Positions 37,243-55,874 of a stretch of 64,000 nt of DNA are shown here, piece by piece (positions within the stretch are counted from its first letter, which is position 1; each line of letters starts with the position of its first letter). The DNA is taken from assembly GCF_003946045.1 (NCBI RefSeq), contig NZ_RHNW01000002.1:1-64000 (forward strand). The letters run 5' to 3'. Source of the DNA: Levilactobacillus mulengensis (GTDB lineage Bacteria > Bacillota > Bacilli > Lactobacillales > Lactobacillaceae). Position numbers and translations under genes: made by a program. The notes beneath the pieces are model-generated. The model did not search any database, had not been told where the DNA came from, and was given only the letters and a program-made list of their open reading frames with translations.

Positions 37243-38130
37243 CTATTTGCTAGCCGTGACGCGCCGGTACAGGAAGTTCCCCAGTAACCGGGCACCCAGG
37301 TTGAATAACAGAACGGCAATGATCAACACAGCTGAGGCGGCGGCGGACAGTTGAGCCGCGTTGTTGGCCAGCCCTTCCGTGTTAACCTTCCAGATGTGGA
37401 CCGCCAACGTTTCCGCTGGCCGGAAAGGATTCAACGGACTGGCTGGATCCATGGGATTCCAGTCGCCGAAGTTGGTCACAGGGGCACTTTGACCGGCCGT
37501 GTAAATCAAGGCAGCGGCTTCCCCGAAGACCCGCCCAGCACTCAACACAATCCCAGTCACGATTCCTGGTAAGGCCACTGGCAAGATGATGCCAATTTCC
37601 GTTTTCCATTTGGATAAGCCCAATGACAGGCCCGCTTCCCGTTGACTCCGGGAGACGGCGCTCAAGGACTCTTCAATGTTCCGCGTTAATAACGGGAGGT
37701 TGAAGAACGTCAGCGCGATGGCCCCAGAGATAACGGAGAAGCCAATTTTAAATTTCACTACGAACAGCAAGAAGCCGAACAGCCCTACAACCACGGAAGG
37801 CAGTGAGCTCAGAACTTCAATCGCCGAACGAATTAAACTCGTCCGCCAGTTGTCCTTAGCGTATTCTGCCAAGTAAATCCCGGCACCCAAGGAAATGGGC
37901 ACGGAAATCAACATGGTCAGGATCAACAGATAGAAGGAGTTAAACAGCTGAACACCAATTCCGCCAGCACCACTAAAGGCATCCGTCGTCCCCGTCAGGA
38001 ATGACCAGCTCACGTGCGGCAGTCCTGAAATCAGGATGTAAGCCAGTAAGAAGACCAAGATACCCACGACCGTCGCCACGATTAAATTAATCACGACCGT
38101 CGCCAAAAAATCAGTTCGTTTAGCGTTCAT
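37243..38130 (-). CDS. pstA: phosphate ABC permease PstA
   Basis: 295 residues, six helices, with REAGLSLGLSKWKTEIGIILP as the ATPase-contact loop. Overlaps pstC by 11 bases; GAGGGGGC ribosome site. Confidence 0.94.
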   Translation of the reverse strand: MNAKRTDFLATVVINLIVATVVGILVFLLAYILISGLPHVSWSFLTGTTDAFSGAGGIGVQLFNSFYLLILTMLISVPISLGAGIYLAEYAKDNWRTSLIRSAIEVLSSLPSVVVGLFGFLLFVVKFKIGFSVISGAIALTFFNLPLLTRNIEESLSAVSRSQREAGLSLGLSKWKTEIGIILPVALPGIVTGIVLSAGRVFGEAAALIYTAGQSAPVTNFGDWNPMDPASPLNPFRPAETLAVHIWKVNTEGLANNAAQLSAAASAVLIIAVLLFNLGARLLGNFLYRRVTASK

Positions 38131-39073
38131 GTTTCAGTTGCCCCCTCTTAGCAATGACCCGCACGAGTGCGTTGAAGAATAATGACATCAGTAACAGGAT
38201 CAAAGCCAAGGACCATAAGGCGTTGTTTGGCAGCGTCCCATCAATCGTATCCCCGATACCAGTGGTTAATTGACTGGTTAATGTTGAAGCGGGTGAAATT
38301 AAGTTTTTAGGCATAATCGCAGCGTTCCCGATAACCATTTGTACGGCTAAGGCTTCCCCGAAAGCCCGGGCCATCCCAAAGATCACGGCGGTCAAAATTC
38401 CCGGCGTTGCTGAACGCAGGATGACCCGCGAAACAGTTTGCCAACGCGTTGCACCCAATGCCAAGGAAGCTTCCTTGAAGTGCCGAGGCACTGCCCGTAA
38501 ACTATCGACCGTCATGGACATAATTGTTGGTAAGACCATGACAAACAGCACGAAGGTGGCGGAGATGATCCCGAACCCGGAACCACCGACCACGTGGCGC
38601 ATGAATGGCACCACCACGGCCAGGCCAATGAACCCGTACACAACGGAAGGAATCCCAACCAGTAATTCAATCACGGGTTGTAAGAGTTTCCGGCCCTTGT
38701 TTGGTGAGATTTCGGTCATGAAGATGGCCGTCCCAACGGCAAAGGGTGTGGCCACAATCGCAGCGGCAAAGGTCACCGCGAAGGACCCGACAATCATAGG
38801 TAAGGCCCCAATATGGCCCTGATCAGGCGCCCAGTTAGTCCCAAACAAGAACTTGGTCAGGCTGACGTGGTTCTGGGTAAACGTGGCGACCCCTTTAGAC
38901 GTGATGAACCACAGCATTGACGCCACCACCAAGATGATGACCCCAATACAGAGGTAACTGATACCCTTACCCATCCAGTCCTCACGTGTGGCCCGCGTGG
39001 CGTGATGCAAGCGCGCTGACCAGTCGTTGGACTGCGATTTCTGTTTCTTAAGTTGAAAATTTGTTTGCTCCAT
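38120..39073 (-). CDS. pstC: phosphate ABC permease PstC
   Basis: 317 residues from the ATG at 39073 (GGGGGAG upstream). Cytoplasmic N-terminal tail of about 45 residues, then six helices; contact loop KEASLALGATRWQTVSRVIL. Confidence 0.94.
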   Translation of the reverse strand: MEQTNFQLKKQKSQSNDWSARLHHATRATREDWMGKGISYLCIGVIILVVASMLWFITSKGVATFTQNHVSLTKFLFGTNWAPDQGHIGALPMIVGSFAVTFAAAIVATPFAVGTAIFMTEISPNKGRKLLQPVIELLVGIPSVVYGFIGLAVVVPFMRHVVGGSGFGIISATFVLFVMVLPTIMSMTVDSLRAVPRHFKEASLALGATRWQTVSRVILRSATPGILTAVIFGMARAFGEALAVQMVIGNAAIMPKNLISPASTLTSQLTTGIGDTIDGTLPNNALWSLALILLLMSLFFNALVRVIAKRGQLKHER

Positions 39074-39154
39074 CTGTTGACTCCCCCTTAAAAAAAGTGA
39101 AGGTGCTACGACCGCACCTCCACCCATGTGACTACGACAATTTGTTCGCGGCGC

Positions 39155-40048
39155 TTAGTTCTGGGTCACAGTCCCCTTAGCGTCCTTAGTAACTTTCATA
39201 TCATGGATACTGATGTAGCCCATGTCTTTAACCAAACTGTCTTGAACAGTCTTGGAATCCATGTACTTCAGGAAAGCAGCAACGGCCTTGTCAGGCGTGC
39301 CCTTCGTGTACATGTGTTCGTAGGACCAGATCTTCCACTTGTTGTTTTCTACGTTGTTGTCCGTTGGCGTAACGTTGTCAATGGAAACAGCTTGTAACTT
39401 GTTCGTGAAGTATGAGAAGGCCAAGTAGCTAATGGCACCAGGCGTCGTGGCAACAATCTTTTGAACGGCACCGTTAGAGTCTTGTTCTTGTGACTTCACA
39501 GCGGTTGCGCCCTTGAGAACAGCATTTTCAAAGGTTGCTCGCGTCCCACTACCTTGCGCACGGTTGATGATGACGATCTTTTGGTCTTTACCGCCAACTT
39601 CTTTCCAGTTGGTAATCTTACCCGTAAAGATTTGTTTTACTTGCGCCATCTTTAAGTTCTTGATGCCGGCATCCTTGTTCACAACGGGTGCCATCCCAAC
39701 AACGGCAACCTTGTGGTCAGTCAATTTGTCTGCCTTGATACCTGCTTTTTCTTCAGCGAAGATATCTGAGTTCCCAATTGAAACGGCCCCAGCTTGCACT
39801 TGGCTTAACCCAGTTCCGGAACCCCCACCTTGAACAGTCAAGTTAACCTTGCTGTTCTTAGCTTGGAAGTTGGCGCCGGCCTTGGCAGCCAATGGTTGTA
39901 AGGCGGTTGACCCCACAGCCGTGACCTTGCCAGAAAGTGCTTCACTACTGCTACTCTTGCTGCTAGTCGAACTGGTTGCCTTACCACAGCCCACTAATAG
40001 TAAACTGATTGTTGCAATCCCCATCGCTAACTTTGTTCCCTTATTCAT
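39155..40048 (-). CDS. pstS: phosphate-binding lipoprotein PstS
   Basis: 297 residues. Start at 40048 after GGAGTG. Lipobox LLVGC with the lipidated Cys at 21, Ser-rich linker, then the phosphate-binding fold: VGSTALQPLA, GGGSGTGLSQV and NRAQGSGTRATFE, whose Ser/Thr/Arg bind phosphate. First gene of pstSCAB; an upstream PhoP-box-like repeat suggests induction in low phosphate. Confidence 0.95.
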   Translation of the reverse strand: MNKGTKLAMGIATISLLLVGCGKATSSTSSKSSSSEALSGKVTAVGSTALQPLAAKAGANFQAKNSKVNLTVQGGGSGTGLSQVQAGAVSIGNSDIFAEEKAGIKADKLTDHKVAVVGMAPVVNKDAGIKNLKMAQVKQIFTGKITNWKEVGGKDQKIVIINRAQGSGTRATFENAVLKGATAVKSQEQDSNGAVQKIVATTPGAISYLAFSYFTNKLQAVSIDNVTPTDNNVENNKWKIWSYEHMYTKGTPDKAVAAFLKYMDSKTVQDSLVKDMGYISIHDMKVTKDAKGTVTQN

Positions 40049-40183
40049 CTCTGTCACTCCATGTCTTTTTAAGATATAGTAGAACCACCACAACGTAAGC
40101 TAAGTCGCAAATGTTTCGTGGTGCCTCCCCTTAACTTACAAGGCCAATTCTACGTGGTGAATTTATGTTTTTCGTCGCAATCG

Positions 40184-40200
40184 TGTAAATTTTCGGTAAA
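40184..40200 (-). promoter_or_regulatory. PhoP-box-like direct repeat of the pst operon
   Basis: Read leftward: TTTACC-GAAAA-TTTACA, two TTTACA-like hexamers with a 5-base spacer, as in PhoP binding sites of Bacillus. It lies about 140 bases upstream of pstS. No phoP gene is in the window. Confidence 0.5.
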
Positions 40201-40334
40201 TATTGCCAAATCTTCTATAAATCCATTTATATTGAGATGCTTAACCCCCAAACACGATTAATCAACTAATTACGGGTGATTAATTGCGTAATATCAAGAG
40301 AATGGCTAGAATTAAAGGTAAGAGGTGACCAGAA

Positions 40335-40685
40335 GTGGCAAATAAAAATGCAAAAGCCGCACGGCACGCCATCATCGTTGATATGAACGACTTTTTGATG
40401 GACTACGCTGCCAACAAGTTAGGGAAACAACCCGACTTGGCTGAAAAGGTAGCAGCTGCCGCAAAGAATGATCTTTCAGAATTAGACAACCTATTTAAAG
40501 ACAACGGTGTCGGTCGACGGACCAAGTACCTGGACCTCGCTGCGGGCTTTCTCCGCGACGAAGCCGATGCTGACGATGAAGACACCAGTCACGACTTTAC
40601 CGCTGCTAGCGACGCCTTGGCTAAAGAAGCGATGGCTTACCTTAGCAGTCACACCAACGAGTTCGACCGCTGGGAAGAAGAATAA
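40335..40685 (+). CDS. small acidic protein, function unknown
   Basis: 116 residues, GTG start after AGAGGTGA. All-helical and acidic toward the end (DEADADDEDTSHDF, FDRWEEE). No family recognised; the ADKVAAAAKNDLSELDNLFKDNG-like middle suggests a helical bundle. It is divergent from pst and ends at a shared terminator. Confidence 0.65.
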   Translation: MANKNAKAARHAIIVDMNDFLMDYAANKLGKQPDLAEKVAAAAKNDLSELDNLFKDNGVGRRTKYLDLAAGFLRDEADADDEDTSHDFTAASDALAKEAMAYLSSHTNEFDRWEEE

Positions 40686-40704
40686 GATTTTGACTGAAAC
40701 ACAA

Positions 40705-40738
40705 AACACCCCACGAAAAAAATTCGTGAGGTGTTTTT
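40705..40738. terminator. bidirectional terminator
   Basis: AACACCCCACGA...TTCGTGAGGTGTTTTT between convergent small genes. Confidence 0.88.
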
Positions 40739-40748
40739 ATTTTACATT

Positions 40749-40952
40749 TTACTTCCACTGCCAGAGGTCAGCCTTCATGTTGGTCGCAATGATTTTGGCC
40801 AGTAGATCAACAAACTGATCGGGCATGTAGGCGGTCGTATCCAGTGTCGTTGCCTGGCCGTTGACCTTGGTGATGGTCAGGCCTTGATGTTCCAACGTCA
40901 GCCCGTACTTGGGGGCAATCTGGCAGAGCCGTTCGACTTGTTCTTCGTTCAC
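40749..40952 (-). CDS. 67-residue protein, function unknown
   Basis: GTG start 7 bases after AAGGAGG. Mixed alpha/beta sequence (MNEEQVERLCQIAPKYGLTL...KADLWQWK). No family recognised. Repeat B5 lies upstream, 59 bases from the start. Confidence 0.6.
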   Translation of the reverse strand: MNEEQVERLCQIAPKYGLTLEHQGLTITKVNGQATTLDTTAYMPDQFVDLLAKIIATNMKADLWQWK

Positions 40953-41010
40953 GGGGGATCCTCCTTGTCTGGTGTCTTTAACACGAGCTTAGCCAATCCT
41001 CCTGGCCACG

Positions 41011-41320
41011 TCAAGTTGGTTTTCGCTGGTCTTTGCTGTCGCCTCCGGGATGGTAAAAACTGACGGTGCCTTTCGTTCCCGACGGTGGGCTCAAACTGCC
41101 CTGCTGTGGGGAACGGCTCCAGCCTGAGGAACGGTCTGGGGCCTCGCCTTGAAACCTCGCTATGGTTCGCGAGTTTCCAAGGTCGTCCCGTGCTCTAGGC
41201 TGAAGATCCCTCAGCCAAGACCACCGACACAGCTGAGCAGTTTGGCCCACCTCTGGTCACTAACACTGGTCAATAATTTTTACCATCCCCGCGGCTGACA
41301 CTCACCCAGCCCCAACTTGA
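41011..41320 (-). repeat. structured repeat B5 (full copy)
   Basis: Full reverse copy whose end arms are GTCAAGTTGG and CCAACTTGAC: sequence unlike the GGGTTAAAC ends of other copies, but perfectly complementary to each other. Inner CGTTCCC...GGGGAACG hairpin and GGTGGGCTCAAACTG/CAGTTTGGCCCACC helix kept. Confidence 0.8.
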
Positions 41321-41386
41321 CTGACGATGACCGGTCCTTATCATTTGTCTTCTTAACTATCTTCCACCCCAATCGCTAACAAATAA

Positions 41387-41416
41387 GCCCCATGGCTACC
41401 GAATAAGTCATGAGGC
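41387..41416 (-). terminator. terminator of the HPr-like gene
   Basis: Leftward GCCTCATG...CATGGGGC, then TTATTTG. It is about 500 bases beyond the stop at 41917, with repeats A5 and B6 in between. Confidence 0.55.
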
Positions 41417-41477
41417 AAAAAGTTTAATTTTAAATACCAATCATTGTCAGCTACTAGGCATAGAAATGAACTCGCCA

Positions 41478-41660
41478 ATGTAAGTGACCAGAGGCGAGCC
41501 AAGAGTCCCAGCTGTGTCGATGGTCTTAAAGTTTAGAGCATGGGACGCCCTTTTAGACTGGTGTTCTTCCAGGCTCAAAGGCGAGCTGGAAGACCGCCCC
41601 TCAGGCTGGAAGCGGGCCCCACAACAGGGACTCTTGCCCCCCTCGTCGGGAACGAACCTA
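41478..41660 (+). repeat. structured repeat B6 (core only)
   Basis: B core without the end arms. Long-range helix GGCGAGCCAAGAGTCCC with GGGACTCTTG, a paired change from the usual AAACTGCCC/GGGCAGTTT. Followed after 40 bases by A5. Confidence 0.75.
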
Positions 41661-41700
41661 ACACCTGGTGCAAAACAATTGGCAACACAACTCCTTCTCA

Positions 41701-41912
41701 CAACCACCGTGTAAGCCGTGAGGGCGGCGAAAATAACTTCAGCCGTGGGAATGCCCTTAGTAGCGTTCTTGGCTGCTTAGGGCATTGGCGTCTTTGAGAC
41801 GTGTCCTTGCGGCTCAAAGCGAGGGCGAAGACCGCTCTTTGGCTTCGGCCGTCCGCCCCAGCGTTTCGAGTTATTTTCGCCGCCCGGTAAGGCACTGACA
41901 AAGACTAACTTA
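41701..41912 (+). repeat. structured repeat A5 (subfamily A')
   Basis: Closing stem GGGCGGCGAAAATAACT/AGTTATTTTCGCCGCCC, first hairpin ATGCCCTTAGTAGC...GCTGCTTAGGGCAT, TTTGAG...CTCAAA; every stem has its own paired sequence. Ends 4 bases from the HPr-like stop codon. Confidence 0.82.
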
Positions 41913-41916
41913 ACGT

Positions 41917-42180
41917 TTAATAACAATACTTGTCTTTGGCCAATTGCTGATGAATGGCGGCGGCTAATTGGGCCTCGTCCGGACCATCCGTCACCACCTG
42001 GACAAAGTCACCCCCATGCTTCGAAAGCTCCGCGACCTCCTGGGCCAGCTTGGGATTCAGGTCCGTGTTGCGCACCCGAATCGTAGCCGTTCCTGTGTAG
42101 CGCTGACAAATTTTCTGGAGCGCGGCACTTTCGTCTGTTGCAGGCATTTCTTGATATAATGGGAATCCGATTGTTTTCAT
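41917..42180 (-). CDS. degenerate HPr-like protein lacking the phosphorylation sites
   Basis: 87 residues, the length of HPr. The C-terminal half aligns well (HGGDFVQVVTDGPDEAQLAAAIHQQL against QGSDVTITVDGADEAEGMAAI in HPr), as do PAT and the strand TATIRVRN. The active-site HARPAT is replaced by EMPAT, so there is no His15 equivalent, and the Ser46 region reads LNPKLAQEV. It therefore cannot act as a normal phosphocarrier and may be a regulatory decoy. GAGGTG ribosome site; a perfect cre overlaps the promoter. Confidence 0.6.
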   Translation of the reverse strand: MKTIGFPLYQEMPATDESAALQKICQRYTGTATIRVRNTDLNPKLAQEVAELSKHGGDFVQVVTDGPDEAQLAAAIHQQLAKDKYCY

Positions 42181-42200
42181 CTGTAATCACCTCTGAATTA

Positions 42201-42229
42201 ATTGTAAGCGATTACATTGGCTTTGCCAA
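42201..42229 (-). promoter_or_regulatory. promoter of the HPr-like gene with perfect cre site
   Basis: Read leftward: TTGGCA (42229-42224), 17 bp, TACAAT (42206-42201). TGTAAGCGATTACA at 42203-42216 matches the CcpA consensus TGWAANCGNTNWCA at every position and covers the -10 box, the place for repression. Confidence 0.85.
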
Positions 42230-42329
42230 TACCTTTTACCATTTTTCACAAAGTCACTGACCGAACCCTTCTCGTAGCCGTCGCTCTAGGAAAAATCACA
42301 TGGCACTTTGACCCATGACTTGGAGCTGG

Positions 42330-42487
42330 GGATAAAATCCTAGACTTTTCGCACCCGTTTATCTGGCCGAAACGTGCGACAAAAGGCAGCCGGTTCCGCT
42401 TAAAACTGCTAACCAAACAATCCAAAACCAGGATTATTCGGTTAGCAGCCTTAATGCTCGCCGGCTAACCACCTTTTGTCTCACTCT
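42330..42487 (+). repeat. structured repeat C3
   Basis: GGCCGAAACGTGC, then outer helix GACAAAAGG/CCTTTTGTC, CCGG/CCGG, loop strings TTCCGCTTAA and TTAATGCTCG, and inner hairpin GCTAACC...GGTTAGC. Compared with C2 both helices have changed on both strands while the loop strings stay the same. Confidence 0.7.
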
Positions 42488-42564
42488 CCATGACTTTCCG
42501 AACACGCGTTCAAACCTGGGTTAAAGTGTGGTATGATATTGCCAGAAATGGAGGCGATGGCGGC

Positions 42565-44928
42565 ATGACCACCAAACTTGGCGTCCGGGAATTAGTGGAG
42601 TTCACGCTCCGTACCGGCGACCTCAGTGCCACTTCCGGCAGCCAAAACACGGCCTTACTGGGCGCACAGATCCACCGTCGTCTACAGAAACAACGCGGTG
42701 AAAATTATCAAAAGGAATATTATCTCGATAAAGAACTGACCCTAAACGGCGACGACTACCTGCTTCACGGCCGAGCCGACGGGGTCACCCTGACCGAAGA
42801 CGCCACCAGCATCGAGGAAATCAAGACGTCCGAAACCGTCTTTGAGCAGCTGAGCGACAACACCCTGACCCTCTACTGGGCCCAGGTAAAGATTTATGCT
42901 TACCTTTTAATGGAAAAGGAATCTGATTTAGATCAAGTCACGTTGACCCTGACCTACTTTCAAACTAACACGGAAACCACGACCCAAACGGACCAAACCA
43001 TTACCCGTGAGGAGGCTGCGGCCTTCTTTGATAAGGTCATCACGGAGTACATTACCTGGCTCAAATTCCGGTCGGACCTGCGCGAGCGGCGAGACCCCAC
43101 CATTCAAGCGCTGACCTTCCCCTTTGGTCAGTACCGACCGGGCCAACGCGAGCTCGCCGTGGCCGTCTACAAGACCATTCTGACGAGTAAACGCCTCTTC
43201 GCCGAGGCCCCAACTGGGACCGGGAAGACCATTTCCACGCTGTTTCCGACCATCAAGGCGATTGGTGAGGGTGTGATTCAACGCATCTTCTACCTCACCG
43301 CCAAGCAGAGCACGCGCCGGGTGGCCGAGGAAGCCGTCGACCTGATGGCCAGTCAGGGACTGAAGCTCAAGAGCATCACCCTGACGGCGAAGGATAAGAT
43401 CAAGTTTCCCGAGGAAGCCGACCTCCAACCCGACGAGAATCCCTACATGTTGGGCTATTACGACCGATTAAAGCCGGCTCTGTTGGACCTCATTCAACAC
43501 AATGACCAGCTCACCCGCCCGGTCATCGAAAAATACGCGCGCAAACACACGCTGGATCCGTTTGAATTTCAGCTGGATGCGAGCCTCTTTTGTGATATCA
43601 TCATCGGCGATTACAACTACCTCTTCGACCCGCAAGTCCACCTTCAGCGCTTCTTTGCGACCGAGGACCCCGATAACTTTTTCCTGATTGACGAAGCCCA
43701 CAACCTGGTCAGTCGGTCCCGCGATATGTACTCGGCGGAAATCAATAGCCAGCCGCTGGACCGCTTAATCGAAACCAGTCGGGACCTGGCACAAGCCACG
43801 CCCAAGCTGCGACGGCGGCTCCAAGACCTGCGCGCCACCTTTAGTGACATTGCCCAGCCATTGATCGACGACGGCCAGACCGACAGTACCTTTTTGATGC
43901 CACCGGAAAACTTCGACCACGACCTCAGCCGGTTGGTGGAAGCCATTCACGACTGGCTGGTCGACCAGCCACAGACGCCCTTCACCCAGGCGATACTCGA
44001 CTACTACTTCGCCGCCATCAGCTACCAACGCATCGGCGAGTACTATGACGACACCTACCGCATGCGTCTCGAGTTGGACAACGGCAACATCATGCTGAAG
44101 GAATTGTGCCTGGACCCCAGCGCCTTTCTCGCCGACAGCCTCGCACTGGGCCACGGCGCCGTGCTCTTCTCAGCCACCCTGTCGCCCATGGACTACTACC
44201 AAAACGTGTTGGGCGGCGACCAGGACAGTCTGGCGTACCAGCTCGACTCCCCGTTTGAACCCGCGCACCAAGAAATTCTAGTCACGACCTACATTCAAAC
44301 GACTTACAAGCAGCGCAACGCCAATCTCGCCAACATCTTACTGGCAATTAAAAACTTGATTGACGGCAAAACCGGCAACTATCTGATTTTTTTGCCTTCC
44401 TATAGTTACCTGCTCGACGTCAGCCAGGCCTTTCATCTGGCCTACCCGCACGTCAAAACCGTCTGTCAGGAATCGCAAATGGCTGAGGCCAACCGGACGG
44501 CCTTTCTTGCCAGCTTCACGGCCAATCCCAGTGAGACGCTGGTTGGCTTCGCCCTGCTCGGCGGGATTTTCTCCGAAGGCATCGACTTGAAGGCCGACCG
44601 GTTGATTGGCGTCGGCATCGTCAGCGTCGGTCTGCCCGGACTCAATCCGGAGACCAACCTGTTGCGCGACTACTTTGACGAACGTTCCCACCGCGGCTTC
44701 GCTTACGCCTACCAGCTCCCCGGCCTGAACAATGTGTTCCAGGCGGCCGGTCGTCTGATTCGCGGGTCCAAAGACGTGGGCATTATTTTGCTGATGGATC
44801 AGCGATTCGCCAGCCCCCGCTACACCAACCTGTATCCACGCCACTGGCAACATTTCCGCCGAATTTATCGGCCCGAACAGCTCAGTCCCGCGATTGAAAA
44901 TTTCTGGCATCAGGAGGTGCCCCAATGA
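42565..44928 (+). CDS. Rad3/DinG-type helicase with N-terminal PD-(D/E)XK nuclease domain
   Basis: 787 residues from the ATG at 42565 (GGAGG 10 bases upstream). N-terminal Cas4-like nuclease domain: GRADGV (D72), IEEIK (E85, K87) and QVKIYAYLL (Q107). Superfamily-2 XPD/DinG helicase from about 190: Walker A APTGTGKT at 215-222, DEAH at 376-379, VLFSATLSP, LGGIFSEGIDL and QAAGRLIRG near the end. The four iron-sulphur cysteines of XPD/DinG are absent. Acts on DNA; repair or defence are both possible. Overlaps the next gene by 4 bases, heading a three-gene operon. Confidence 0.88.
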   Translation: MTTKLGVRELVEFTLRTGDLSATSGSQNTALLGAQIHRRLQKQRGENYQKEYYLDKELTLNGDDYLLHGRADGVTLTEDATSIEEIKTSETVFEQLSDNTLTLYWAQVKIYAYLLMEKESDLDQVTLTLTYFQTNTETTTQTDQTITREEAAAFFDKVITEYITWLKFRSDLRERRDPTIQALTFPFGQYRPGQRELAVAVYKTILTSKRLFAEAPTGTGKTISTLFPTIKAIGEGVIQRIFYLTAKQSTRRVAEEAVDLMASQGLKLKSITLTAKDKIKFPEEADLQPDENPYMLGYYDRLKPALLDLIQHNDQLTRPVIEKYARKHTLDPFEFQLDASLFCDIIIGDYNYLFDPQVHLQRFFATEDPDNFFLIDEAHNLVSRSRDMYSAEINSQPLDRLIETSRDLAQATPKLRRRLQDLRATFSDIAQPLIDDGQTDSTFLMPPENFDHDLSRLVEAIHDWLVDQPQTPFTQAILDYYFAAISYQRIGEYYDDTYRMRLELDNGNIMLKELCLDPSAFLADSLALGHGAVLFSATLSPMDYYQNVLGGDQDSLAYQLDSPFEPAHQEILVTTYIQTTYKQRNANLANILLAIKNLIDGKTGNYLIFLPSYSYLLDVSQAFHLAYPHVKTVCQESQMAEANRTAFLASFTANPSETLVGFALLGGIFSEGIDLKADRLIGVGIVSVGLPGLNPETNLLRDYFDERSHRGFAYAYQLPGLNNVFQAAGRLIRGSKDVGIILLMDQRFASPRYTNLYPRHWQHFRRIYRPEQLSPAIENFWHQEVPQ

Positions 44929-45617
44929 AAACCAAACTCACTTTAGAAATGGAAGCGACCCTCTACGCGTACTGCCGAGAAGCCGGCGCGTTTGCGGTCG
45001 AAGAGGTCACCATGCCCGACGACGCTGGTATCGTGGACACCCTGAGCTACCAGGAACTGCCCGACAAGTCCATCGAGTGGCGCTGCTACGAGCTGAAGGT
45101 CACCAAGAGTGATTTTCACTCGAAGGCCAAGCTCTCCTTCGTCGGCCACTACAACTACTTCGTCCTGCCGCTCAAGCTCTACCAAACGGTTCAGGACGAG
45201 ATCCCCCCCCGCATCGGCGTCCTGATCTACCGGCCCTTCGATGCGGAAATGTTGGCGACCGCGACCGAAGCGCCCAGCACCCCGGGCTACCTGACCGTTG
45301 CCCGGCCACCTCGTCATCAGGACCTCCAAGTTCCCGCTTCGGAGCTGACGACCCGCTTCATTGCCTCACAGGCACGGGAGGTCGGCAAGGCCAAGCAGAT
45401 GGCAACCGGTCTCAAACAATATTCCACCGACCGGCTCTACCAGGAATTGAAGAAACGCCATCAACACTATGATATCTACGATCCGGATGCTAACTTCTAT
45501 GACCAGTTCATCGAGGACACCCAGTCGACGGCGGTCACGGCCCTTCAGAGCGAAATCGATGCGCTGAACCTGGAACGCCACGACCTCCAGCAACAGTTAA
45601 AGGAGCAGCGGTCATGA
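44925..45617 (+). CDS. PD-(D/E)XK nuclease-like protein (MmcB-like) with coiled coil
   Basis: 230 residues. N-terminal restriction-fold signature GIVDTL (D38) followed by CYELKVTKSDF (E56, K58) and KLSFVGHYNYFVLP, resembling MmcB-type DNA-repair nucleases. The C terminus (about 195-230) is a charged coiled coil. Translationally coupled to both neighbours (ATGA overlaps). It may supply a second nuclease to the helicase complex, or be related to the sce7726 proteins usually paired with sce7725. Confidence 0.7.
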   Translation: MKTKLTLEMEATLYAYCREAGAFAVEEVTMPDDAGIVDTLSYQELPDKSIEWRCYELKVTKSDFHSKAKLSFVGHYNYFVLPLKLYQTVQDEIPPRIGVLIYRPFDAEMLATATEAPSTPGYLTVARPPRHQDLQVPASELTTRFIASQAREVGKAKQMATGLKQYSTDRLYQELKKRHQHYDIYDPDANFYDQFIEDTQSTAVTALQSEIDALNLERHDLQQQLKEQRS

Positions 45618-46528
45618 TCTACTTTCCTTACTTTCGGGGCCGGCAGTACGATCTCCTGGCTCTAAAAAACATTGCCCAACAACACATTCTGCCTCCGAAC
45701 ATTATTCCGATTATCGAACCCGTCCGGGACATCCGGGCCCTGCCGCAAACCGTAGCCGCCTTCGTCGAGCACGACCAACCACTGGTAGTGATTGCCAACC
45801 CGACCGTCAGTGACTACGCCTTGACCCAACAAAAGCTCCACGATTGGCGACCCTACGCGGATAATCCCCAGTTAATCGTCGGCCATATTCTGACGCCCAC
45901 CATCATCCCCGCGAATCTTCAACCAGCCGCGGAGCACCGGACGTTGCTGGTCGGTCGCCAATACGATGAACTGGTTGCCGCCCAACATGCTGGCTGGCTC
46001 AACGACCCGAGCTACCTGTTGGTGCCGCCTGAAGCACGCATTCGCCAGCTCATCACTCGGCCCACCATCAGCCTCTTTGACCACGCCTGGCTACCGGAGC
46101 ACGAGCGCAGTTACGCCGACATTACCGATGGCTTCTTCAGTGACGACTGGGTGCTCGCCACCCTCAACGGTTATCACGGTGTCAGTGACTACACGATTGG
46201 TGGCGCCCACTACAGCGAGCACGGCTACCCGGCCCGTGCCGTCACCCTGCACCTGACCTACTTTCAGGGTGACCAGTTGCGCATCCACCGCTTCGTTTCC
46301 GATGACCGCGAAGACTTCCGCCATCCCAAGGAGAAATTTTTCCAGGCCGTCGCCAAGTTGGCCGCCTGGTTACCAGACCACCCGGACGTCCAAACGCCGG
46401 CGGCTCTGGCTCTGGCGAATTACCATACCACGCAACATTTCCCGGGACTGGGCGTGGTGAAGCGGCTCAGCCTGGAGCACCATCTACAGACCATGGCCGC
46501 TTACTTCAAACTACATTATCCAGAATGA
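45614..46528 (+). CDS. sce7725-family protein
   Basis: 304 residues, starting YFPYFRGRQYDLLALKNIA and NIIPIIEPVRD, the characteristic opening of the sce7725 family, which is found beside nuclease genes in mobile or phage-linked loci. The fold looks like a TIM-barrel-type beta/alpha protein (repeated strand-helix units, LFDHAWL, DDWVLATLNGYHG). Molecular function unknown. Last gene of the operon; overlaps its predecessor by 4 bases; AAGGAG site. Confidence 0.7.
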   Translation: MIYFPYFRGRQYDLLALKNIAQQHILPPNIIPIIEPVRDIRALPQTVAAFVEHDQPLVVIANPTVSDYALTQQKLHDWRPYADNPQLIVGHILTPTIIPANLQPAAEHRTLLVGRQYDELVAAQHAGWLNDPSYLLVPPEARIRQLITRPTISLFDHAWLPEHERSYADITDGFFSDDWVLATLNGYHGVSDYTIGGAHYSEHGYPARAVTLHLTYFQGDQLRIHRFVSDDREDFRHPKEKFFQAVAKLAAWLPDHPDVQTPAALALANYHTTQHFPGLGVVKRLSLEHHLQTMAAYFKLHYPE

Positions 46529-46544
46529 GGTCTTGTTCATGGAT

Positions 46545-46750
46545 TGCCGTTCCCGGCGGCGGATTCAACCTGACCTGCTGTGGGGAACGGTTCCGGCCTG
46601 TGGGACGGTCCTACGCCTCGCCTGAAAGCCTGGAAAACCACCAGTCTCCCAGGTCGTCCCGTGCTCTAAACTGAGAAAACCACTCAGTTAAGACCACCGA
46701 CACAGCTGTCCAGGTTGATCCGCCTCTGGTCACTCACACTGTCCAACTCT
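46545..46750 (-). repeat. structured repeat B7 (core only)
   Basis: Core copy starting 17 bases after the sce7725 stop codon. Helix GGCGGATTCAACCTG with CAGGTTGATCCGCC, a compensated variant; CCGTTCCC...GGGAACGG hairpin kept. Confidence 0.78.
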
Positions 46751-46857
46751 TTCTTGATTTGCGAAATCAGACCACATCACGACTGGTTAACGTCACTATC
46801 TGTTGGATAAATTTTCTCACAATGCGTCACTAAATTTCTTGGAGCAACCGCTTTAGC

Positions 46858-46904
46858 CGCCAGACCGGTGAAAATCAGCCACACTGCTCAATGTCAGTGA
46901 CCAC
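46858..46904 (+). repeat. B-family fragment
   Basis: GACCGGTGAAAATCAGCC...CAATGTCAGTGACCA matches the 5' arm of B1. A duplicated TTGATTTGCGA-like string lies on either side (46764 and 46914). The rest of 46751-47021 shows no gene. Confidence 0.5.
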
Positions 46905-47021
46905 TTCATTCCTGATTTGCGACGTATGACCCGTCTACCAATCGTTAAAGCACGTTTCCACATAATGTAGAAAAATTCATACCACAGTAGAACATTGCCA
47001 ACGAATCGCTTAGTTGCACGG

Positions 47022-47305
47022 AAAAACACGTCAGCCGCAGGACTGGTGAAAATGAACCCGCGAGGACAGTGTTAGTGACCAGAGGCAGATCAACTTTCCC
47101 AGCTGTGTCGGTGGTCTTGGCTGGGGAGATTTTTCCCAGCCTAGCCCACGGGGCAACCTTTGAGACCGCTTTTCAGGCTCAAAGTTGAGGTGGAAGCCCG
47201 CTCCCCAGGCTGTAACCGACCCCATAGCAGGGAAGGTTGAATCTGCCGCCGGGAACGACACTTTCGGCCACCGCGTTCCGGCTCATTTTCACCAGTTCAA
47301 AGGCA
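47022..47305 (+). repeat. structured repeat B8 (full copy)
   Basis: Both arms present (GCAGGACTGGTGAAAATG and CATTTTCACCAG). Long-range helix CAGATCAACTTTCCC with GGGAAGGTTGAATCTG, a compensated variant. Confidence 0.78.
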
Positions 47306-47310
47306 TAAAA

Positions 47311-47343
47311 AATAGCGCCTGGGAAAAATTCCCAAGCGCTATT
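47311..47343 (-). terminator. terminator of the lactonase gene
   Basis: Leftward AATAGCGCTTGGGAA...TTCCCAGGCGCTATT, then TTTTATG. Confidence 0.88.
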
Positions 47344-47354
47344 CGTTTAATTAT

Positions 47355-48401
47355 TTAGAATTTAGCTGGTAAGACGCTGACACCTTCTGGGACCATGAAG
47401 TCCTTTTGGGCCAACGTTAACTTCCCGCTCTCGGCGTCGCGACTGAACAACGAAGCGTTGTCGGAGTTTTGGTTAACGACCAGCAGTAAGCTTTGGTCTG
47501 ACGTCCAGTTGAAGTCCCGTGGGAAGTCACCTTCCGTGGAGATCCGTTGAACCAGCGTCAACGTGCCATCATCAGCGGTGGCAAAGACGGCCAGGGAGTT
47601 GTTCCCCCGGTTGGAGACGTAAATGAACCGCCCGTCCTTGCTCATGCGAATGGCTGCGGCACCGTTGTGCGTCGTCCAGTCGGCTGGAATCGTGGAGATG
47701 ATACTCTTCACAGCCAGCTTGCCGGTTGCGGCGTCGTAGCTTAACGTGGCCACGTTACTGCTCAGTTCACCAACGAGGTAAGCGACACCCTTTTGATCAT
47801 CGAAGACGATGTGCCGTGGGCCGTAGCCGGCTGGCATGTCGAGTTGACTGACGGGAGACAATTTACCATCATCAGAAACGTCATAGACGTAAACCTTGTC
47901 GGACCCTAAGTCACAAACGACTAAACGGTTGTCCGGCGTCAGGTCGGCGAAGTGTGGGTGGGGACCGTCAGCTTGTTCGGGCGCTGGGCCAACGGGGTCC
48001 TGGTCAACGACCTTATCCGTTTCCTTCAACGTCCCATCAGCGGCGATAGCGTAAACCGTCACAGCGGCCGTGTGGTAATTGGCCGTGTAGACCAACTGCC
48101 GAGCTTCATCAACCGACACGTAGGCTGGTGAGGCACCCAATTCCAAGACCTGTTGAATGGCCCGTGGCTTTTCTTCAGATACATCATAGATGATCAACCC
48201 ACCGTGGGTCGTGCCATCCGTTTCTTTTTTGTTGATGACGTACAGGCGCTTAGCCGCAGCCTTTGCGATGTAAGTCGGGCTCCCAGCTGATGCTAACCAT
48301 TCGCAGTCCATTAACTTAGGCGCTGCGGTGTCTACGGTTACCCGGTAAATCCCACGACTAATGCGCTTGGTATAAGTTCCAATGTAAAAATCTTCCGTCA
48401 T
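47355..48401 (-). CDS. lactonase-family beta-propeller protein (6-phosphogluconolactonase type)
   Basis: 348 residues, start at 48401 after AAAGGGG. Seven-bladed propeller of the YbhE/Pgl type: FYIGTYTKRISRGIY at the start, ADGPHPHFADLTPD, YGPRHIVF, GDFPRDFNW, VNQNSDNASLF. Family members hydrolyse 6-phosphogluconolactone in the oxidative pentose phosphate pathway, which is central in heterofermentative lactobacilli. Stands alone. Confidence 0.85.
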   Translation of the reverse strand: MTEDFYIGTYTKRISRGIYRVTVDTAAPKLMDCEWLASAGSPTYIAKAAAKRLYVINKKETDGTTHGGLIIYDVSEEKPRAIQQVLELGASPAYVSVDEARQLVYTANYHTAAVTVYAIAADGTLKETDKVVDQDPVGPAPEQADGPHPHFADLTPDNRLVVCDLGSDKVYVYDVSDDGKLSPVSQLDMPAGYGPRHIVFDDQKGVAYLVGELSSNVATLSYDAATGKLAVKSIISTIPADWTTHNGAAAIRMSKDGRFIYVSNRGNNSLAVFATADDGTLTLVQRISTEGDFPRDFNWTSDQSLLLVVNQNSDNASLFSRDAESGKLTLAQKDFMVPEGVSVLPAKF

Positions 48402-48666
48402 GTGTGCTGCCCCTTTCAACTTGCCAATATCACTCTTAAGTATAGCACAGCTGGCTAGTAAAGGCCGGTGAAGTCATTTAACCCCGGGAGTTGGCAAATA
48501 TCTCCGAAACTTAGTTGCAACCGACCGCCGACATTAGTATGATGTAATGTAACCACCCGCTTAAAGAATAAGTCGTTTGACGGTTGGCTCACCCTGACTG
48601 GGACCGCTTATCTCTAAGCCAACGTACGTACCTACAGAATGACTGCCAAGAAAGGACTCACCGCAC

Positions 48667-49116
48667 ATGTCTAGTTTCGAAGGGTATCATCCCCTTTTGA
48701 CACCGCAATTTCGTTTCGACTGGCTCACCCAATTTAAGTTAAAAAATGTGGCGGATCTCACCGCTAACGACCTGGGGGCCACTGCCGACTGGGTCAACGC
48801 CACCATGCACGACACCATGGACCGTTCCGCCCTCACCTGGGGCATCGAACGGCGCCGGACCCACAAACTCATTGCCTGGGGCGGCTTCAGTGACCTCGAC
48901 CTGACCGCCCACACCGGTAAAATCGGCTTCAACGGTAAGCGGGTCCCCGCCACCGAACAACAGGAAATCGTCGACCGACTGGTTCATTTCGGCCACGAAG
49001 AACTCCAACTGACGGACATGACCCTGACCAGCGCCGGCAAATTAGACGACGCCGTGCTGGCCGCTGCTGGCTTCGTGCAAACAGACGGCCAGTGGCGTTG
49101 GACGTCCCGCCACTAA
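48667..49116 (+). CDS. GNAT-like acetyltransferase domain protein
   Basis: 149 residues resembling RimL-type GNAT proteins (WLTQFKLKNVADL, WGIERRRTHKLIAWGGFSDLD, a C-terminal LAAAGFVQTDGQWRW). The acetyl-CoA loop is not obvious, so activity is uncertain. Upstream 265 bases hold no recognisable element. Confidence 0.6.
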   Translation: MSSFEGYHPLLTPQFRFDWLTQFKLKNVADLTANDLGATADWVNATMHDTMDRSALTWGIERRRTHKLIAWGGFSDLDLTAHTGKIGFNGKRVPATEQQEIVDRLVHFGHEELQLTDMTLTSAGKLDDAVLAAAGFVQTDGQWRWTSRH

Positions 49117-49130
49117 AAATAAGTGTAAAC

Positions 49131-49164
49131 AAAAGCCCATTTCTACGCGAAATGGGCTTTTTTC
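49131..49164. terminator. bidirectional terminator
   Basis: AAAAGCCCATTT...AAATGGGCTTTTTT between convergent genes. Confidence 0.88.
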
Positions 49165-49968
49165 TTATTTCGAGGCAAAAACTAATAATCCTGTGCCACC
49201 AGTAGTACCAGTTGGCGTGCCAATCTTACCGGCAATCTGCCACCGTTGCAGGTCCTTTTGCTGTTGAGCAGTCAACTGTCCATCCACCGCCTGCTTGACC
49301 GCGGCCGCGTTGGTCGGGTCACTCACATGAAACCGCACCAGGTAAAAGGCACTGTAGCTGGCGTTGTTAGCGGTCAACAGCTGATCAAAATCACCGTTGG
49401 CGCCATCAATCTGTTCCGTTAAAATGGGCTGGTTGTCCGTTGAGGCAAAGACCTGATTAACCGCGGCCATCAGGTCACTGTCGTAGGCCGCGTGCGGGAA
49501 CAACTTCATTAGGCTGATATCGGCTGGTTGTAGTCCGGCCGTCTTGGTGGCCGTGGCCCAGTTCATCGTCGAAGTCGTTGCCGCGGCGGGCGTACTGGCT
49601 GCGGACTTCAAGTAGCCGCGCCAGATCCACCCACCGTGCTGACCATCGGCGCTGTTTACGTGATAGTAAATTAAGTATTTCCCGGTAGCCACGTCGTACA
49701 GCTTTTCATGGGCATTCGTGTACCACGTCACATCCGGCAAACTGCTGTTGTACCCATACCAGGTGCCCAAGTGTTTGGAGTAACGACTCCCCTTAACGGC
49801 GGTCAGCGCGTACCGCTTCATGCTAGCACGCCAAACTAACCGAACGGACTTGGACCGACTGGCGGAATATTGAGACTTGGCCGAAGCCGTAACCGTCCCG
49901 AAACCGCCGACCAAACTGACACCAACACCTAACGCAATGATTCCCTTAACAAATTGTTTCACGTTCAA
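49165..49968 (-). CDS. secreted protein with SH3/GW-like wall-binding domain
   Basis: 267 residues. Signal peptide ending TASAK, then a domain ending HGGWIWRGYL that matches the N-terminal domain of the two carboxypeptidases in this window (TWY...LKHG...YYV...GWIWHGYL). The C-terminal part (about 130-267) is a helical domain of unknown function ending GTTGGTGLLVFASK. Probably exported and wall-attached. Confidence 0.7.
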   Translation of the reverse strand: MNVKQFVKGIIALGVGVSLVGGFGTVTASAKSQYSASRSKSVRLVWRASMKRYALTAVKGSRYSKHLGTWYGYNSSLPDVTWYTNAHEKLYDVATGKYLIYYHVNSADGQHGGWIWRGYLKSAASTPAAATTSTMNWATATKTAGLQPADISLMKLFPHAAYDSDLMAAVNQVFASTDNQPILTEQIDGANGDFDQLLTANNASYSAFYLVRFHVSDPTNAAAVKQAVDGQLTAQQQKDLQRWQIAGKIGTPTGTTGGTGLLVFASK

Positions 49969-50203
49969 ACCTCCCCGATTCTTCTTTTAGTTTAGGCAGG
50001 AAATGATTTAAAGTCCACTACCTTTTTCAATCGTTGTGCAAAATTAAGTAATCACTGTATGGAAATAGGTGACTACCAGGTTCCCCGGAAGCCATCTTGT
50101 TAAATAGCCCTAAAATTGACAAAATTTTCAAAAATAAAAGAGCCCTACCTATTGGCAAGACTCCGTTCAGTCATTCTTAGATTTACAAGCTGAGGATTGG
50201 AAA

Positions 50204-50491
50204 TTAAATACCTAAAGACTTGAAAAGGTCTTCCTCGTTGTGAGTGGTTGCTAATTTTGTAGTTCCATTAACAACGTCATCAATTTCCTTTTGGATTTCA
50301 GGGCGTACATCAGACTGTAATCGCGTGAGTGTAGAGTGGTCATCCATTTGTTTCTGTTCTCTAGTAACAAACAACAATCTAGCAGAAGCTATTCGATTTC
50401 GATCCAGTGTTTTTAATACTCCGAATACTTTTACAGTTTTAGCTTTCTGTGAGACATGTAATACCATAATTGATTTCATTTTTGGCTTCAT
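50204..50491 (-). CDS. 95-residue protein of unknown function in an AT-rich pocket
   Basis: Begins MKPKMKSIMVLHVSQKAKTV, predicted as strand-rich N-terminal half and helical C-terminal half (PEIQKEIDDVV). GAAGGAG site 5 bases before the ATG. The gene and its flanks (about 49980-50520) are visibly more AT-rich than the rest of the window, suggesting separate acquisition. No family recognised. Confidence 0.6.
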   Translation of the reverse strand: MKPKMKSIMVLHVSQKAKTVKVFGVLKTLDRNRIASARLLFVTREQKQMDDHSTLTRLQSDVRPEIQKEIDDVVNGTTKLATTHNEEDLFKSLGI

Positions 50492-50555
50492 GAGTACTCC
50501 TTCTCACATAGGTTCAGTCTAACCTCCAAGCAGATCAATGGACATGCAAGTCACC

Positions 50556-50768
50556 GGGTTAAACCCATGTCAGCCGCAGGACTGGTGAAAATGGGCTCAG
50601 CCGTGGGAGTTGCCTTAGCGGTTTACCGCTTAGGCAACTCCTATCTTTGAGACGTGGTTTTCGGCTCAAAGTAAGTCCGAAGACCGCTTCTCAGGCTTCG
50701 GACGCGCGCCCACAGCGCCACGGCCCATTTTCACCAGTCCGGAGGCGATGGTAAGACGTTTCGTTTAA
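50556..50768 (+). repeat. structured repeat A6 (full copy)
   Basis: Ends GGGTTAAACCC and GTTTAATCC; the right end includes the TAA stop codon of the permease gene. Last hairpin GTCCGAAG...CTTCGGAC. Confidence 0.83.
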
Positions 50769-52354
50769 TCCTCAGTGACGCGCTGGTTTAGCTCTTCTGC
50801 GATGCTAAACGACTCGCTGTAATAAGCGTCGTGCACGCCCAGGTAGTAACACCCCAGGCTCCCCAGCGCCACCACCACAAAGTCCAACGGATATGGCAAC
50901 CAGCCAACACCGCCAAACTCATGGCTACCAACCAGCGACATCATCGTCAGCCAAATCATTTCGGCCAACAACCAGCGGCTCCCTTTGAGACTCGCCCGTA
51001 ACGCGCGCCAGCCAGCCGGTTGCCGCACCTCGTAGTACACGTAGAACACCAGACCCAGCGCAATCACGCCAAAGACCTCAATCGTCGTGGGCCACTTGGC
51101 CCAGTAGATCGCCAGACTGGCTAAAATGTAAGCCAGCGGTGCCCACCAATGCAGGCCGCGCAACCGAAACGGCCGGACAAACTTCCTGCCTTGATGCCGC
51201 AGCGCTGCCACCGTGACCGGTCCCGTCAGATAAGCAATCAACGTGGACGTGGAAATCACATTTGACAAAGCACTCCAGTTCCGAAAACCCGCGACCAGCA
51301 CGACACCCAGGAACATGTCGACAATCATCGCTCGCCGTGGCGTTTGATATTTCCGATTGATTTCACCCAAGCGCGTCGGCATGTGCTTGGTCCCCGTCAT
51401 CGCGGCCAGCGCCCGACTCGTGGTGGCCACGAACGAGACCCCGGTCCCAAATGGTGAGACGAAGGCGTCCAGGTACAGCAGCGTCGACAGCCAGCCCAGA
51501 TTCAAAAGAATCGCCAGGTCTGCGAACGGTGACTGGAAGTTGACCCCCTGCCACCCGTGCGCCAGGTTGCCAGCGGGAACGGCGCCGATGAAGGCCACCT
51601 GTAGCATCGTGTAGATGACGGTGCTAATCCCAAAGGCAATCACAATGCCCCAGAGAATGTTGCGCTCTGGGTGTTCGATTTCATTGCCCATATTAATGGT
51701 CGTTTGAAAGGCATTGTAGGAGAAAATAATTCCCGCAGCGGTCGTGGCCGAGAAGATCGACGCACTGCCGCCTGGCATGAAGCCCGCCGCCTGGCTGAAA
51801 TCGTGGGGATCAAACCCGGTCCAAATCAACACGATAATCGTCAGCGTGGGAATCAGTAATTTAAAGATTGAAATAAAACTGGTAAAACGTGTCAGTAATT
51901 TAACCGACCAAAAGTTTAGCAACGTAAAGGCTAGGATAAATAGAAAGACAATGACTAACCCTTCGTTGGTAATATTGCCATTTTTCAAGAATCCCCGGGT
52001 CCAGTTGGCCCATGACCACGGCCAGGACGCCATGTACTGCACGGCCGCAACGGCCTCAATCGGGATAATGGTTAAGAGTGACAACCAGTTAGCCCATCCG
52101 GCAACGAACCCCAACAAGGGCCCGTGGGAGAAGGCCGCGTACTGGCTCATCCCCCCGCTGGTCGGAAACATGGTCCCCAACTCGATATAATTCAGGGCAA
52201 TCAGGCCAATGACCATGGCCCCTAAAATCCATGATAAAACTGCGGCCGGACCGGCAATCTGGGCGGCCATCCCCGCGCCAAACAGCCAACCCGAGCCAAT
52301 GATGGCACTCAGCGTTAACATGACTAGCGAAAACAAACTCATCTTGCGCTTCAA
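50765..52354 (-). CDS. APC-family amino acid permease
   Basis: 529 residues, 12-14 helices. Begins with a TTG at 52354, 7 bases after GTGAGGA. The consensus IIGSGWLFG in helix 1 and SYNAFQTTINMGNEIEHPERN in helix 6 place it in the APC superfamily, close to aspartate:proton symporters of the YveA type. Substrate not provable from sequence. The 3' end runs into repeat A6. Confidence 0.83.
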   Translation of the reverse strand: MKRKMSLFSLVMLTLSAIIGSGWLFGAGMAAQIAGPAAVLSWILGAMVIGLIALNYIELGTMFPTSGGMSQYAAFSHGPLLGFVAGWANWLSLLTIIPIEAVAAVQYMASWPWSWANWTRGFLKNGNITNEGLVIVFLFILAFTLLNFWSVKLLTRFTSFISIFKLLIPTLTIIVLIWTGFDPHDFSQAAGFMPGGSASIFSATTAAGIIFSYNAFQTTINMGNEIEHPERNILWGIVIAFGISTVIYTMLQVAFIGAVPAGNLAHGWQGVNFQSPFADLAILLNLGWLSTLLYLDAFVSPFGTGVSFVATTSRALAAMTGTKHMPTRLGEINRKYQTPRRAMIVDMFLGVVLVAGFRNWSALSNVISTSTLIAYLTGPVTVAALRHQGRKFVRPFRLRGLHWWAPLAYILASLAIYWAKWPTTIEVFGVIALGLVFYVYYEVRQPAGWRALRASLKGSRWLLAEMIWLTMMSLVGSHEFGGVGWLPYPLDFVVVALGSLGCYYLGVHDAYYSESFSIAEELNQRVTED

Positions 52355-55247: not shown

Positions 55248-55267
55248 CCTTTCCTTGTGTCTTTAGG

Positions 55268-55472
55268 GTTCGTTCCCGGCGGTGGGCTCAAACTGCCCTG
55301 CTGTGGGGAACGACTGCGGCCTGAGGAGCGGTCCTCCGTCTCGCCTGGAAACCTCGCTGAGTTTCGCGAGTTTCCCAGGTCGTCCCGTGGTCTAAGCTGA
55401 GAAAATCACTCAGCCAAGGCCACCGACACAGCTGGTCAGTTTGGCCCACCTCTGGTCACTGACACTGGCCAG
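55268..55472 (-). repeat. structured repeat B9 (core only)
   Basis: Begins 20 bases after the perR stop codon. GTTCCC...GGGGAAC hairpin and GGTGGGCTCAAACTG/CAGTTTGGCCCACC helix. Arms are absent. From 55473 to 55874 I see no gene or named element. Confidence 0.78.
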
Positions 55473-55874
55473 GCTATTTCTATTGGGCCCGGTGTCGTGT
55501 GATTCTGTTCTATTAGAATGGATTCCATTCCATTCTATACAAGATTACATCAACTTATACAAACTACTGACGACCACTTGGCCCGGGCGACATTGCCTAG
55601 GCTTTTTCTTTGGCCGGTCGCTTTGATTGCGTGCTACGGCGCCTAGGGTTACCGGATTCTGGGGACGCACCTTTAGCTTGTTAGCCCTTTCAACCGTTGA
55701 CTTTGCTAACTTTCACAATCATTTTCATAGAAAGTGCCCGCAGGCCCGGCGTGGCAATGTTACAGCCACATTACAGGTGACGCTAAGTTTTAATCTATTT
55801 GCAAACACCCCGAACAAACGCCGCCACCGTCGATATAAGCCGCGTAATATTACGCATAAAGCCCCGTCTGACGG

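Follow-up and report, generated by a model that had tools for sequence, protein, structure and literature searches.

A conserved nuclease-helicase operon behind a predicted LexA operator in Levilactobacillus mulengensis, with DNA repair a more likely role than phage defence

A locus of three overlapping genes

The DNA analysed here, hereafter the window, comprises the first 64,000 nucleotides (nt) of contig NZ_RHNW01000002.1 from Levilactobacillus mulengensis (assembly GCF_003946045.1). It carries three consecutive forward-strand genes, g1 (42565..44928, 787 residues), g2 (44925..45617, 230 residues) and g3 (45614..46528, 304 residues), that overlap by 4 bases at both junctions. An original prediction, made from the sequence letters, had described a three-gene operon joined by such overlaps and offered it as a candidate DNA defence or repair system. 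The coordinates of the open reading frames (ORFs) bear out the operon, for which we find a role in DNA repair more likely than one in phage defence. The mechanically called g1 ORF begins further upstream, at 42490, but the true start is likely 42565, since a predicted LexA operator (42499..42512) and a -10-like element (42532..42537) both fall between these positions; the sequence GGAGG at 42550..42554, the probable ribosome-binding site of g1, supports the same choice. The compact layout recurs in a set of relative loci (the best 80 of 197 confirmed loci). Of the 75 loci where both ORFs were called for g1 and g2, 68 show an overlap and 7 a gap of 2-20 nt; g2 and g3 share 4 nt in 70 of 77. Median pairwise ratios of non-synonymous to synonymous substitution rates (dN/dS) against Levilactobacillus-clade relatives are 0.052 for g1, 0.055 for g2 and 0.067 for g3, rough values obtained from 25 of 28, 23 of 29 and 21 of 28 usable comparisons, respectively, with dS above 1 in many of them.

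The g1 product joins an N-terminal Cas4/RecB-like PD-(D/E)XK nuclease domain to an XPD/DinG-type helicase of superfamily 2. The residues first proposed for g1 are all in place (D72, E85 and K87, and the Walker A motif APTGTGKT at 215-222), DEAH lies at 376, and the three nuclease positions are the same in 52 of 53 aligned rows; the other row is a fragment in which this region is missing. Helicase_C_2 and DEAD_2 exceed their Pfam cut-offs, the Cas4 model gives a weak match on residues 29-145, under its cut-off, and PDB entry 9kqh, for which our literature search found no publication, aligns to residues 3-762 (E 2.8e-151), with XPD and DinG chains matching as well. In PADLOC, g1 matches the typeIV_DinG (E 2e-113) and Cas4 models. 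As to a Type IV CRISPR setting, no cas gene was recognised by eye among the ORFs at 38000-52000 (the neighbours were not all searched with models), and the repeat list for 41000-48500 holds no array-like family. A very long g1 ORF at one locus was set aside as an artefact caused by N bases. The iron-sulphur (Fe-S) region is devoid of cysteine in 31 of 31 aligned Lactobacillaceae rows (the window and 30 loci, the window being counted twice among the 31), and 3-4 cysteines are present in 21 of 21 other g1 rows of the phylum having this region, one fragment aside. This loss has a parallel, since pseudo-FeS domains were noted in ExoDinG from Bacillales and Lactobacillales (PMC11981726). On these features, g1 resembles DinG-like proteins of the EndoDinG architecture without their Fe-S cysteines, and is a predicted endonuclease/helicase. 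EndoDinG is described as a DinG-like subgroup combining PD-(D/E)XK and helicase domains, in a section that names no partner genes (Cheng 2025, PMC11981726). The same paper states that many characterised DinG relatives function in SOS and repair, and some in phage interference.

The second protein also shows the PD-(D/E)XK residues that had been assigned to it, D38, E56 and K58, and these are invariant in two alignments (18 of 18 and 58 of 58 rows). It matches PHROG 2776 (E 3.5e-23) and, more weakly, a PHROG annotated as DNA repair protein (1.8e-5). Its AlphaFold 2 (AF2) model has a mean predicted local distance difference test score (pLDDT) of 82 and an extra helical tail at the C-terminus. 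A PDB profile search with g2 returned no meaningful match, and no solved structure was found for it by sequence. By structure, its best match is 3dnx, a protein of unknown function that we take to be a member of PF06319, the MmcB-like family (Z 14.9, with 142 of its 146 residues aligned, root-mean-square deviation 3.3, 15% identity); this match emerged from the VIA second look only, and the best hit of Foldseek alone is PaqCI (E 1.9e-3). Two of 18 g2 homologues hit PF06319, one of them above the cut-off (22.7 versus 22 bits). Taken together, sequence and model make g2 look MmcB-like. Its assignment as a plain sce7726 protein is unsupported by sequence, with an hhalign probability of 11% and no match to the sce7726 model NF033832.

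The placing of g3 in the sce7725 family, already made in the original prediction, is secured by its match to NF033831 (279 bits for a cut-off of 60, E 6.4e-83). The protein has no Pfam match, and no solved structure was found for it by sequence. The g3 model is confident (pLDDT 88.9, predicted TM-score 0.89) and resembles a TIM barrel. Many different TIM barrels match it with similar scores, and no function was therefore read off from these matches. Five residues show no variation among 22 diverse sce7725 proteins (R8, E35, N62, D156 and D192), and all lie at or just past C-terminal strand ends in the strand list of the model. TIM-barrel enzymes have their active sites at the C-terminal ends of the strands. 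Because its invariant residues sit there in the model, g3 is likely an enzyme.

A predicted LexA operator and its conservation

The original prediction did not mention any regulatory site. A search with CGAACN4GTTCG, one mismatch being allowed, found one at 42499..42512 (CGAACACGCGTTCA, forward strand, one mismatch), over the g1 promoter and at -66 to -53 relative to the start of g1. The pattern is that of the LexA boxes of B. subtilis and S. aureus (PMC9578287). The -10-like element TATGAT, part of TGGTATGATATT, is just 3' of the operator; it is mostly kept with it in Levilactobacillus and may work as the promoter. By itself the search result has no weight, with 2 sites in the window for 2.5 expected. 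Conservation is more telling. The operator arms are unchanged in all 28 Levilactobacillus-clade loci with upstream sequence, and the Levilactobacillus footprint consists of the operator plus a downstream TGGTATGATA-like stretch, both kept, between diverging flanks.

Across several genera, 75 of the 80 loci were usable (4 were dropped for want of g1 and 1 as too short), and 60 of these 75 have a perfect GAACN4GTTY core in the 200 nt that precede g1; random 200-nt windows carry such a core in 0.2% and 0.75% of cases in two controls. It is found in 23 of 26 Levilactobacillus loci (further upstream in the remaining 3), 11 of 11 in Lactiplantibacillus, 19 of 19 in Companilactobacillus, 4 of 4 filed as Lactobacillus or uncultured and 3 of 5 in Lacticaseibacillus. 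We claim that the operator is old at the g1 locus and often kept; LexA binding at 42499-42512, and induction of the operon upon its release, would be expected. In three Levilactobacillus loci (L238, L239, L241), a few hundred inserted bases separate the predicted SOS promoter from g1, and this insertion may uncouple g1 or lengthen its leader.

The regulon itself seems to use the same type of site. The region before lexA carries CGAACN4GTTTG in all 8 genomes examined, which come from 7 genera and include two Secundilactobacillus, and sites of the same pattern in the genome of the window precede further genes, which we take from their translations to be parE, dnaE and a Y-family polymerase gene. 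In that genome, palindromic LexA-type sites also stand at the starts of two small proteins that read as SSB-like (L313, L316), and their genes are candidate SOS genes.

Distribution, inheritance and mobile relatives

Within Levilactobacillus, g2 was found in 34 of 35 genomes; the thirty-fifth keeps g1, with about 110 nt from g1 to the lactonase gene and no g2-g3 remnant. Gene order was compared at 7 Levilactobacillus loci, one of them that of the window, and each has the operon between pst genes and this lactonase. It thus belongs to the core genome, at one locus, in its home genus, a finding of the kind that the original prediction had itself named as refuting and one that goes against its candidacy as a defence system. 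Nor was the defence island that might have been expected around it seen at 7 loci in 7 genera, where at most 2 of 78 neighbours have a PADLOC hit (E<=1e-15, one model each).

Two broader samples were used, one of 151 genomes from the family and one of 249 genomes from the phylum, window genome included. In the family sample, g2 matches occur in 34 genomes and are full in 32, the others being a 47-residue piece and a match at E 5.5e-4; g3 occurs in 33 genomes, 32 of them the same as the full-g2 genomes. The remaining g3-bearing genome (G043) has a sce7726-like gene, sce7725 and a RES gene instead. For g1, a single full-length match was found in 73 genomes (3 with one internal stop) and broken or split copies in 2. 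Every one of the 32 full-g2 genomes also carries g1 (Fisher p 3e-12). In 30 of the 32, g1 is just upstream of g2, with a HAD gene between them in two and an interrupted g1 frame in one (G037); at L145 and L197, from one Lactobacillaceae genus, the intervening gene encodes a Cof-type HAD hydrolase. Trio-bearing genomes have the larger median size (2.65 versus 2.0 Mb, 30 versus 43 genomes). The phylum sample holds g1 relatives at E<=1e-60 in 23 genomes (one a C-terminal fragment) and sce7725 in 7. In two genomes one gene seemed to be missing, g3 from G023 and g2 from G054, but these were artefacts of antisense ORFs chosen in their place; tblastn finds g2 in L050 (G054) and g3 in L254 (the matching contig of G023).

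Neighbourhoods and trees inform on how the trio has been transmitted. In Levilactobacillus and Secundilactobacillus, g1 keeps the same lactonase close by whether or not g2-g3 are present (in the latter genus, without them at L149 and L150, with them at L135, L136 and L148), and in other genera the trio block is mostly beside different neighbours. On the g1 tree (FastTree, with long-branch warnings), a minimum of 7 changes is required to explain the trio state, which is present in several early-branching lineages, a pattern consistent with an ancestral trio that would have been lost repeatedly. The g1, g2 and g3 trees agree over 71 trio loci of the 80-locus set, with 21 to 26 shared supported splits for 1 to 4 conflicting ones and distance correlations of 0.95-0.96, g3 evolving about twice as fast; only 2 of the 45 supported splits of g1 conflict with the g2 tree. 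The three genes are inherited jointly, either vertically or as a block.

Pairs of g2 and g3 also occur away from g1. IMG/VR loci L339-L342 carry such a pair near a gene that reads as Zot-like, with no g1 nearby; upstream sequence is present for three of them, the near-identical L340-L342, and includes a perfect CGAACATATGTTTT at -48 that continues into TATAAT. Sites with one mismatch are present at -50 or -51 in L301 and L306, from two Companilactobacillus, and at -25 in L063, an E. faecium plasmid typed as conjugative, whose g2-g3 pair has a near-identical copy in a Listeria phage contig. Relatives of g2 are mostly unpaired in viruses: 54 phage records match g2 and 3 match g3, only one being shared, and among 65 viral g2-like loci g3 is found in 4 and g1 in none of the fetched flanks. 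Since phages carry g2-like genes without g3, pairing of g2 with g3 characterises the lactobacillus-like branch and not every relative of g2.

The sce7725 family has a second partnership. A conserved operon made of sce7726, sce7725 and a RES-domain protein was observed at loci L055-L059, L064-L068, L201 and L202, in the phylum of the window, in Pseudomonadota and in one faecal phage contig, several copies being on plasmids or beside genes of integrative and conjugative elements (ICEs). The sce7726 model was tested in 3 of these loci and the RES model in 4, the others being assigned by annotation or by eye. This arrangement looks like an undescribed mobile conflict system, and G054 has it in addition to a window-type trio. 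A perfect LexA core was found in 0 of 12 sce7726 loci tested. Among the literature matches listed, the papers on sce7725/sce7726 are by title genome or proteome studies, with no functional paper on sce7725, and no operon like that of the window is named in titles or abstract starts.

As for the flanks of the operon in the window, the repeats by which it had been described as bordered do exist, but they are not its boundaries. They belong to a dispersed intergenic family of about 200-260 nt found in either orientation at 14 merged places in the 64 kb (both strands; 4 are the queries themselves and 4 are short). Copies are scattered at 10384-10644, 13686-13948, 16611-16833, 19177-19399, 41040-41300, 41440-41700, 46530-46760, 47020-47290, 55267-55483 and 57148-57351, together with four shorter matches.

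Repair, defence and known systems

We consider it reasonably probable that the locus is an SOS-induced operon for DNA processing and repair. In the undamaged cell, LexA would occupy the operator and block the promoter; upon DNA damage, its cleavage would release co-expression of the three overlapping genes. The g1 protein could then unwind DNA and trim it where a fork is blocked or where a crosslink or bulky lesion occurs. An incision beyond the reach of this helicase-nuclease could be made by g2, and g3, the regular partner of g2, might either be an enzyme that works on the damaged end or nucleotide or serve as a scaffold in a putative complex. By analogy, an SOS-controlled nuclease-helicase combined with an MmcB-like nuclease most resembles a device for the repair of blocked or crosslinked DNA. 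Of the two functions originally put side by side, repair is favoured: the genes are core at one locus, their trees are congruent, dN/dS is low and no defence neighbourhood was seen in the 7 loci. Core conservation, joint inheritance and the predicted LexA operator, together with the lack of an island at these loci, keep defence from being our first choice.

Several observations weigh against a repair operon under SOS control. Perfect cores are absent from all 10 Secundilactobacillus trios, though lexA keeps its usual operator in this genus, and one-mismatch sites are weak, arising by chance in 3.4% of cases even in a 41-position window. Genome-wide, CGAACN4GTTC sites are below the control pattern (14 versus 28 rows) and hence not enriched, which is why the case for the operator rests on its position and conservation. 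Within one sample of g1 loci, a perfect core accompanies 11 of the 24 trios but 4 of the 46 g1 genes without adjacent g2-g3 (3 of 45 over L149-L193); this association has a Fisher p of 6e-4, but a test on independent pairs (3 pairs) is not significant, and we do not claim that the operator evolves strictly with g2-g3. No operator site was found for the g2-g3 pairs without g1 nearby at L052, L288 and L300. As for the proteins, the window g2 has no hit to Pfam PF06319, and the wider family of g3 is found on mobile elements beside a RES protein, a setting that would rather be expected of conflict systems.

Foremost among the competing readings is a defence comparable to Hachiman that degrades DNA when triggered by damage, in which g1 would sense or unwind abnormal (phage) DNA ends, the g1 and g2 nucleases would degrade phage and possibly host DNA, and g3 would license the nuclease. 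The composition invites the idea, with two nucleases, a helicase and a further partner, as do the typeIV_DinG match of g1, the sce7725 relatives found with sce7726 and RES on plasmids or beside ICE genes, and the g2-g3 pairs standing alone on the E. faecium plasmid and beside phage-like genes in IMG/VR contigs; moreover, Hachiman is activated by DNA damage (PMC12278908). We nevertheless hold an SOS-coupled phage defence to be unlikely, given a single core locus in the genus, joint inheritance with low dN/dS, the predicted LexA operator and the lack of an island at the loci surveyed. No Hachiman-named model is among the PADLOC hits of g1, g2 and g3. PADLOC-DB 2.0.0, which does not cover systems described after 2023, has no model matching g2 or g3, in agreement with the initial remark that no described system with this gene set could be named.

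It is less probable still that g2-g3 form an autonomous accessory module, a nuclease with a TIM-barrel regulator or enzyme (perhaps a damage-triggered device for growth arrest or self-DNA cutting), that rides on the promoter of g1 as an unrelated repair gene. The pair does live without g1 nearby at L052, L288, L300, L301, L306, L063 and L340-L342, 43 of 75 g1-bearing genomes in the family sample have no full g2, and one Levilactobacillus has lost g2-g3 without a remnant. Yet nearly every full g2 of that sample lies behind g1 (30 of 32, counting the two with a HAD gene between), their frames overlap at most loci, and the g1 and g2 trees hardly conflict. An SOS-coupled machine for the processing of incoming DNA in natural transformation or conjugation seems very improbable to us; the mere presence of nucleases and a helicase would suit it, but nothing specific speaks in its favour and no competence or transfer genes were recognised in the window ORFs at 38000-52000.

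If the preferred reading of an SOS-induced repair operon is right, the lactobacillus SOS response gains a conserved operon whose XPD-like helicase does without the usual Fe-S cysteines of its family. For the uncharacterised sce7725 family, the analysis supplies a fold prediction, a candidate for its active site and two alternative partnerships in genomes. The locus would also illustrate that a nuclease, a helicase and an unknown protein are not by themselves a signature of phage defence. A more general scheme is possible, although we regard it as doubtful: sce7725 would be a TIM-barrel enzyme forming a module with a PD-(D/E)XK nuclease and connected to different outputs, namely the NAD-consuming RES protein in mobile elements and, under LexA control, the Fe-S-free nuclease-helicase in lactobacilli. 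The window operon might then be the founding example of an SOS-controlled nuclease-helicase-TIM-barrel machine that repairs DNA or, at high damage, destroys it.

Among known systems, the resemblance to MmcB is the strongest functional hint for the operon. MmcB is an SOS-regulated PD-(D/E)XK endonuclease that protects Caulobacter from mitomycin C (PMC9578287). Likeness is found in the PD-(D/E)XK protein, the predicted SOS operator upstream, the 3dnx match and the homologue above the Pfam cut-off, while g2 differs by its additional C-terminal helical tail, its partner g3 and, in the window, the missing PF06319 match. With EndoDinG, g1 shares both the N-terminal PD-(D/E)XK domain and the DinG/XPD helicase core, but the conserved CCCC [4Fe-4S] motif reported for EndoDinG (PMC11981726) is found neither in g1 nor in its aligned Lactobacillaceae relatives. 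The sce7726-sce7725(-RES) operons are approached by g3 as a full sce7725 member preceded by a PD-(D/E)XK-like gene, although g2 is not recognisably sce7726 and none of the three genes encodes a RES protein. Finally, Hachiman (HamAB) likewise couples a nuclease to a helicase and is tied to DNA damage, whereas the window operon is set apart by its three genes, its predicted SOS operator and its core locus.

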